29,532 nt of DNA from Oscillospiraceae bacterium (lineage in GTDB: Bacteria; Bacillota_A; Clostridia; Oscillospirales; CAG-272), in assembly GCA_015064665.1 (NCBI GenBank), contig SVRU01000031.1, positions 1 to 29,532 on the forward strand, read 5' to 3'. The first letter of the stretch is position 1, and each line of letters starts with the position of its first letter. The notes under the pieces were generated by a model, which had not been told where the DNA came from, made no database searches, and worked only from the letters and a program-made list of their open reading frames with translations. This document shows positions 1 to 675 of this stretch, one piece after another. The position numbers were made by a program, and so were the translations under genes.

Positions 1-308
1 GTGTGCGCGACCTTTATCTTGACAAGGTGAAGGGCTTGATTTGTGAGGCAGATTTCATTGAACTCTCAAAGGAGTTTACCTCACAAAAAGAACGTCTTGA
101 AGCTCAGGTGCTCGAATGTCAAAAGCGAATTGCCGAGATCGATGTTAAAATTGCCGTGGGTGACAACCGCCGTGAGCTGATCGAAAAATACGTCAAAGTA
201 GAACATCTGACACGTGAAATGGTGGAGATTTTGATCGATAAAATTATGGTCGGAAAGCGCATTCCGGGGACACGAAACGTGCCCATCGAAATTCACTGGA
301 ATTTCTGA
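1..308 (+). CDS. Large serine recombinase, C-terminal end (partial)
   Basis: This is the last ~101 residues of a gene that enters from the left edge of the window; the GTG at 3 is an internal codon. The segment is a charged, coiled-coil-prone stretch with the phrases LYLDKVKG, ELSKEF, AVGDNRRELIEKY and VGKR, ending in PIEIHWNF. This is the typical C-terminus of TnpX/CTn-type large serine recombinases carried by integrative elements and prophage-like elements of Clostridia. The catalytic serine domain and zinc-ribbon domain would lie upstream, outside the window. Such recombinases usually sit at the very end of their element, next to the attachment site. That fits the truncated cotJC that follows 86 bases later. 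The family call is by recognition of the C-terminal pattern only. Confidence 0.85.
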   Translation, partial: VRDLYLDKVKGLICEADFIELSKEFTSQKERLEAQVLECQKRIAEIDVKIAVGDNRRELIEKYVKVEHLTREMVEILIDKIMVGKRIPGTRNVPIEIHWNF

Positions 309-400
309 AAAATCGTCAACTCCAAAAGTGCCGTAAATCCTTGTAAAATAATGATTTTTCGCATTTTTTGAAAGTCCAAAAACATTGCGAATAGGTGATA
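309..400. other. Candidate element/chromosome junction (attachment site region)
   Basis: This non-coding stretch lies between the recombinase stop codon and the first residues that match CotJC. The cotJC reading frame is closed by a TAG at 392-394, and CotJC-like sequence begins at about 398-404. The crossover point of the element should therefore lie close to 385-405. No direct repeat can be seen because the other end of the element is outside the window. This is an inference from gene order and truncation, not from a recognised att sequence. Confidence 0.35.
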
Positions 401-607
401 GTAACAGAGCAAAAGGCTCGCGTAACCTACGATAATATTCTTCGGCTTTCGGATGACCCCGACGTTAACGATGCGATAAAATTTTTGCGTCAGCGCGAAA
501 TAGTTCATTTTCAACGTTTCGGCGAGGCGCTGAGACGGACACAGGAAACGCTTGATCAAAAGAATTATTATTCATTCAATCCTTCTTTTAAATGCGGCAA
601 TCGCTGA
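395..607 (+). pseudogene. cotJC: Spore coat protein CotJC, 3' fragment (5' part missing)
   Basis: The 70-residue frame contains EQKARVTYDNILRLSDDP followed by FLRQREIVHFQRFGEAL, which is the C-terminal third of the CotJC/manganese-catalase family. CotJC is about 190 residues in Bacillus and is normally the last gene of cotJABC, expressed in the mother cell under sigma-E. Here homology starts abruptly a few codons after an in-frame TAG (392-394). There is no ribosome site, so the 5' two thirds of the gene are absent. The recombinase end just upstream suggests that an integrated element split the gene, with the 5' part lying beyond the left edge. It may be a dead remnant, or half of a gene rejoined by excision during sporulation. 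Conserved residues in the fragment, including HxxRFGE, look intact. Confidence 0.8.
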
Positions 608-675
608 AATTATAAAAGAAGTTAGCGGTGAAATGATTTTAAATTAAAGCAAAACTTTATATTTTGTAATACAAG

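Follow-up and report, generated by a model that had tools for sequence, protein, structure and literature searches.

Recombinase-carrying elements in the spore-coat gene cotJC of gut Clostridia, and its possible reassembly in the mother cell

At the start of the window, by which we mean the whole 29,532-nucleotide stretch of DNA analysed here, the spore-coat gene cotJC of an uncultured gut Clostridia bacterium is interrupted by an element with a site-specific recombinase of its own: the window contains the end of this large serine recombinase (LSR), and complete LSRs are found in relatives. CotJC is a mother-cell coat protein. On balance we favour the reading that the element is an island inserted at a recurrent position in cotJC, referred to below as site C, and that it is excised in the sporulating mother cell to rebuild the gene. 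Four things were observed directly, namely the anatomy of the split gene, its recurrence, the restored reading frames and selection on one old split gene.

Anatomy of the split gene in the window and in related islands

The anatomy of the split cotJC in the window is near certain. Its parts are as follows.

3..308, + strand: LSR C-terminus, 101 codons and stop, with DUF4368; the rest lies beyond the window start
309..406, + strand: end of the element, a spacer and the attR element arm, with the conserved arm at about 385-406
407..408, + strand: predicted crossover dinucleotide GA in cotJC codon 136, common to both site-C halves, which differ around it
407..607, + strand: cotJC 3' piece, codon 136 to stop, with PF05067; listed as the open frame 395-607

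As the preliminary description of this DNA had proposed, cotJC is cut by a serine-recombinase element, the LSR end at 3-308 being followed by a cotJC piece joined at attR. The frame 3-308 (+) closes with a TGA at 306-308, matches PF14287 (DUF4368; E = 2.2e-10) and aligns over 101 residues with the C-terminus of the LSRs of relatives. The frame 395-607 (+), of 70 codons, has a GTG start right behind a TAG at 392-394, 86 bases past the LSR stop, and matches positions 147-197 of PF05067 (Mn_catalase; E = 7.1e-12), which bears out the C-terminal third of CotJC that had been recognized there. In the interrupted coding region the 3' piece opens at attR within codon 136; it is 86% identical to residues 133-196 of the intact CotJC of locus L023 and free of in-frame stops; the earlier remark that its conserved residues are undamaged is correct. 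By comparison with relatives that have both cotJC halves, we place the probable crossover at the GA at 407-408 (codon 136); with a crossover there, positions 395-406 would be element DNA and true cotJC would begin at 407. The 22-base attR arm of the window is one base off the right end of six complete islands from relatives. Rfam and tRNA scans of the window gave no match.

The closest host relative is IMG/VR locus L001, whose GH28 protein is 96.5% identical to that of the window over 198 residues. The preliminary description had suggested a comparison with relatives that have an intact cotJC; the cotJC of L001, 84% identical to the window piece, is continuous at the window junction. Another LSR interrupts the L001 gene further upstream, at site A, and the two close hosts thus differ in the element that their cotJC carries.

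Between cotJC and the GH28 gene the window has, at 767-2851, a DUF421 gene (-) and a FAD/Rieske oxidoreductase gene (+); in L001 the GH28 gene follows cotJC directly, without intervening genes. As the window oxidoreductase resembles copies within site-C islands (82-87% identity), 767-2851 may be island-derived.

Eight relatives have LSR ends 82-98% identical to that of the window at the same cotJC site (94-98% for G144, G187, G282, G273, G302, G293 and G321; 82% for G301). In six of them the whole island is on one contig, between cotJC halves that are on the same strand and in phase. The 5' half that had been predicted for the far end of the element is thus present in the islands of relatives, and for the window's own 5' half the same is presumed. 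In G144, both cotJC pieces were found in the family search described below. The six complete islands measure 7.7, 13.9, 16.7, 20.4, 21.1 and 26.6 kb, and in five of them the left arm begins GATGCTGCAAT. Common to all six are a Mn catalase (Pfam was run on one copy), a FAD/Rieske oxidoreductase and the LSR, which in L195 has Resolvase, Recombinase and Zn-ribbon domains. The open reading frames of three window-group islands (L195-L197) are non-viral by eye, with Pfam run on eight element proteins; other cotJC elements were found on IMG/VR contigs. Because of the contents of the relatives' islands, we expect an island rather than a phage beyond the window start. A full LSR of the window group gave nine matches in IMG/VR; searches of the same collection with the LSR C-terminus gave eight pattern matches, no relative being confirmed among them, and exact attP patterns gave no match.

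As to cargo, the G273 island (L195) has a bile-salt-hydrolase-family enzyme with TrkH and TrkA, and the G282 island (L196) has Cas9 and Cas1; in these two, cotJC as landing gene shelters gut-adaptation and defence cargo.

The cotJC pieces of the window group are only 69-92% identical, as against 94-98% for the LSR ends; between G187 and G144, for example, the LSRs are 96% identical and the hosts' cotJC pieces 84-90%. Since the LSR ends are far more alike than the cotJC pieces, the window-group insertions look recent, and the intact halves in this group therefore prove little.

Recurrent split sites and recombinase lineages

Breaks recur at about codons 31 (site A), 62 (site B) and 136 (site C) of the L023 reference, and base-by-base comparison of halves predicts the cores GG, GG and GA, respectively. 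A fourth site, E, near codon 178, has matching halves in G197 and G139, and a junction near codon 146 was seen once, in L022. Site E was rejected for G297, of the window's genus, where codons 175-181 mark just a shorter C-terminus; for this reason seven such family genomes are not counted as split.

Each of the 22 IMG/VR loci retrieved with the window piece has a partial cotJC. Among 80 genome loci, 55 have a full-length cotJC and 25 a partial one, four of the latter starting at a contig edge; a 5' piece lies elsewhere in 21 of the 25 partial-locus genomes, and no close full-length copy was found in these 25. G024 has two cotJC pieces that overlap and differ, and may hold two copies.

The frequency of splits was estimated from 196 genomes that belong to the same family as G048, the best-matching genome and that of L023; counts were made by hand, and the search was repeated for 61 genomes. 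A CotJC match was found in 153 genomes, and 145 were kept once eight with a distant paralog or a weak match only had been removed. Of these 145, 92 have a full-length cotJC, 43 a split one, and seven one that matches only to about residue 180; three were set aside (G090 and G119 as unclassified; G176 dropped, its pieces overlapping at contig ends, which is an assembly break and no split). A second intact cotJC had been named at the outset as evidence that would count against reassembly; an intact close copy occurs in just one of the 43 split genomes (G067, counted as split though it also has a full copy). In 26 of the 43, the pieces together span cotJC, apart at most from a contig end; 13 have one piece only, and four lack a middle or end part. 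At least seven carry two or more elements (G060, G077, G139, G158, G212, G215 and G239): G060 has three cotJC pieces in order on one strand of one contig, and G139 has four pieces, with three elements at once. A second element in G107 and G226 was rejected, the extra pieces having 38% and 51% identity, and both were counted as single splits. In a phylum sample of 299 genomes, 179 matched, and there are further splits among the matches listed (14 inspected); these are left out of the frequency counts. Carriers include named strains, namely Anaerotruncus colihominis JM4-15 (L028), Oscillibacter valericigenes An907 (L029) and Pseudoflavonifractor sp. An44 (L096); the elements of An907 and An44, both at site B, measure about 19 kb and 7.9 kb, respectively.

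Several loci have other arrangements. In IMG/VR loci L230, L231 and L235, LSRs that are 71-74% identical to a window-group LSR lie beside a piece of codons 63-136, and the gene seems to be cut there at both B and C; in the 69 kb record G620, the 3' piece lies 23.5 kb from this piece, on the same strand. A full-length cotJC and an orphan 3' copy, which runs from about codon 28-30 to the end, are found on one strand in G429 C141 (L239; about 9 kb apart, 83% DNA identity) and in G508 C1 (L240, L241; about 50 kb apart, 97%); here an incoming element may supply a substitute 3' end, so that cotJC stays whole.

We found 79 LSR frames no more than 1.2 kb from a junction, a number that includes some places twice because they belong to two loci. 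In a tree of 76 frames, LSRs cluster by cotJC site: those at site C form one clade of 30, those at site A one clade of 17 plus one, and those at site B separate clades of 13 and 11, plus one; site E is represented by one place (L019, two loci), and L022 stands apart. We read this tree as at least five LSR lineages having come to use cotJC (A, B twice, C and E). Two LSRs are truncated, to 313 residues in L208 (G248, site C) and 293 residues in L146 (G139, site B), the adjoining cotJC pieces being open; this suggests that some elements have lost self-excision. The two truncations have the look of early decay. At L096 3927-6131 (-), the LSR of An44 is a 734-residue frame, compared with the usual 500-550, with a tail that by eye we take to be like a DNA alkylation repair protein. 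The element of L054, at one point thought to be without a recombinase, has one of 515 aa. Before 63 representative LSRs there are 14 sigma-E/K-like sites, against 8.2 +/- 2.5 in 200 shuffles (maximum 14), which is no clear enrichment.

Reading frames, selection and competing explanations

In the listed rows, neighbouring pieces on the same contig have the predicted strand and order in 31 of 32 joins, with spacings of about 4.7 to 163 kb; the exception is G059. Placed end to end, the pieces give at least 192 of 197 codons in 41 of the 49 genomes or records that we fetched, which were mostly picked for complementary pieces, and no in-frame stop was found in the pieces of these 49 or in that of the window. 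As a control, we looked for the sporulation gene spoIVA (TIGR02836) and recovered it from 70 of 80 of these genomes, in every case full-length in a single frame and never split; it is present in 40 of the 43 split genomes, in all 19 of the 19 with an intact cotJC, in eight of the nine that were unresolved or dropped and in three of nine without a CotJC ortholog. The split genomes therefore have the appearance of spore formers, and general gene breakage does not account for the splitting. The medians of nearest-neighbour pN/pS are 0.126 for split and 0.125 for intact cotJC, which fits continued selection and recent insertion equally.

Sequence comparison gives good evidence that selection can continue to act on a split cotJC as on a whole protein, and this would need reassembly. 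The evidence comes from the G127 clade, a genus and a site other than those of the window. In this genus (17 genomes), six species have the order rnhA, cotJA, cotJB, the first 30 cotJC codons, attL and a fakA-like gene (rnhA and fakA were named by eye), and the presence of a common gene beside attL favours a single old split over six new ones. G127, G059, G247 and G259 have the LSR with attR and the 3' piece at another place; for G215 we did not see the site-A junction of the 3' part, and G257 yielded no 3' piece. In all four clade genomes with an LSR seen, a sigma-K-like site precedes the LSR start by about 60-70 bases. Across the six species the 5' piece (90 bases, 30 codons) has undergone at least 18 synonymous changes and one nonsynonymous change by minimal count (neutral P = 1.5e-10); it varies in 15 codons, G257 being identical to G059 there. 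Between G127 and G059, dN/dS is 0.012 for the 3' piece (dS 0.86) and 0.115 for the adjoining LSR (dS 1.27). The 3' piece is directly preceded by an in-frame stop in G127 and G059 but not in G247 and G259.

For the window, we propose that a mobile island of the site-C group integrated via its LSR into cotJC codon 136. To judge from relatives, the 5' piece (codons 1-135) would lie at the far end of the island, where it would follow the upstream cotJ genes on the same strand and be in phase with the 3' piece. The LSR, together with a directionality factor, would excise the element in the sporulating mother cell, and cotJC would be rebuilt. As the only cell that needs CotJC is the mother cell, which is terminal, an element in cotJC would cost little in growth. 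Excision, its timing and the continued activity of the window's copy are what we infer here, by analogy. We consider programmed reassembly likely for one lineage or more and plausible, if unproven, for the window. We put at slightly under an even chance the wider proposition that the division of cotJC into pieces is purposeful, phages and islands of at least five LSR lineages having converged on four codons, sometimes with three elements at once, and each element being excised in the mother cell by its own recombinase, with one lineage perhaps inverting instead.

It is unlikely, although the possibility carries real weight, that these are plain disruptive insertions, in which cotJC is a conserved but dispensable attB, spores are made without CotJC and the young halves will decay. 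The strong purifying selection on the long-separated 5' piece of six species speaks against this reading, as do the freedom from stops of every fetched piece, the retention of spoIVA by 40 of the 43 split genomes and the arrival of several independent LSR lineages at the same gene. The reading would nevertheless agree with the near identity of window-group LSR ends across species, which marks them as recent, with the two LSRs already truncated and with the 13 split genomes that have one piece only, a number that incomplete genomes also explain. Loss of CotJC is, moreover, reported to be harmless in B. subtilis, where mutants without the protein had no apparent defect (PMC12122855).

We regard it as improbable that the pieces are used unjoined, with the 3' piece serving as an N-terminally shortened CotJC or the island Mn catalase replacing CotJC. 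Such use would account for the Mn catalase in all six complete window-group islands, for the site-A 3' pieces of G247 and G259 that have no stop directly before them, and for the full-length copy beside an orphan 3' copy in G429 and G508; it is opposed by the in-frame stop directly before the 3' piece in G127 and G059, by the retention of the 5' piece as well, by the fact that the site-C 3' piece is a third of the protein only, and by Mn catalases equally similar to CotJC that occur also in genomes with an intact cotJC.

In G059, the sole clade member with both pieces on one contig, the 3' piece with the LSR and attR is at C3:54036-54548 (+) and the 5' piece with attL at 162493-162588 (-), 108 kb apart and inverted. 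With pieces so placed, simple excision would not rebuild cotJC, and recombination by the LSR would invert; G059 may hold an LSR-driven inversion switch, and inversion would also rebuild the gene. That some lineages reassemble cotJC in this way, between inverted att sites, is very doubtful as a general account, for although the 5' locus order common to six species and the selection on the 5' piece agree with it, the orientation comes from one contig of one assembly, and each of the other five species either has its two pieces on separate contigs or yielded no 3' piece.

Relation to known sporulation elements

We return to excision in the mother cell, for which three known systems offer comparison; the recombinase of one of them, SP-beta, is of the serine kind. 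The gin element in gerE of Bacillus cereus ATCC 10987 is, like the cotJC islands, a non-phage LSR island inside a mother-cell gene, and its halves likewise share a short overlap (PMC5595907). For gin, however, rearrangement has been demonstrated, and it has three recombinase genes and occupies one gene at one site (same source), whereas the cotJC elements have four sites, several LSR lineages and stacked elements, and their excision is predicted. SP-beta in spsM of B. subtilis also splits a spore-envelope gene; it differs in being an active phage with demonstrated excision and a single site (PMC4191935). The skin element in sigK carries a recombinase and lies in a mother-cell gene, as the cotJC elements do, and is excised in sporulation; that of C. 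difficile has a directionality factor (PMC5025042). Skin regulates a sigma factor needed for late development, whereas cotJC is a coat protein gene. The C. difficile prophage phi027 is attached beside the cotJC-like gene cotG but, unlike the cotJC islands, leaves it unsplit, as a 678 bp ORF downstream of attR (PMC11222575 and PMC12122855).

In the accessible text of open-licence PMC literature on cotJC with prophage or recombinase, preprints and most subscription journals lying outside this scope, we found no report of a split cotJC, and the recurrence of splits at this gene appears to be unreported within the literature searched. Split-and-rejoined sporulation genes are few in the same material (sigK, spsM, gerE and yabG). 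In our judgement, the cotJC-splitting islands belong with the sporulation gene-intervening elements.

A single coat gene, cotJC, is thus interrupted in 43 of 145 gut-family genomes by unrelated recombinase lineages and, as some carriers are named strains, the question of reassembly is directly testable. Should reassembly prove real, programmed rearrangement of DNA would commonly form part of sporulation in gut bacteria; this would also explain the preference of mobile elements for genes that are used only in the dying mother cell.
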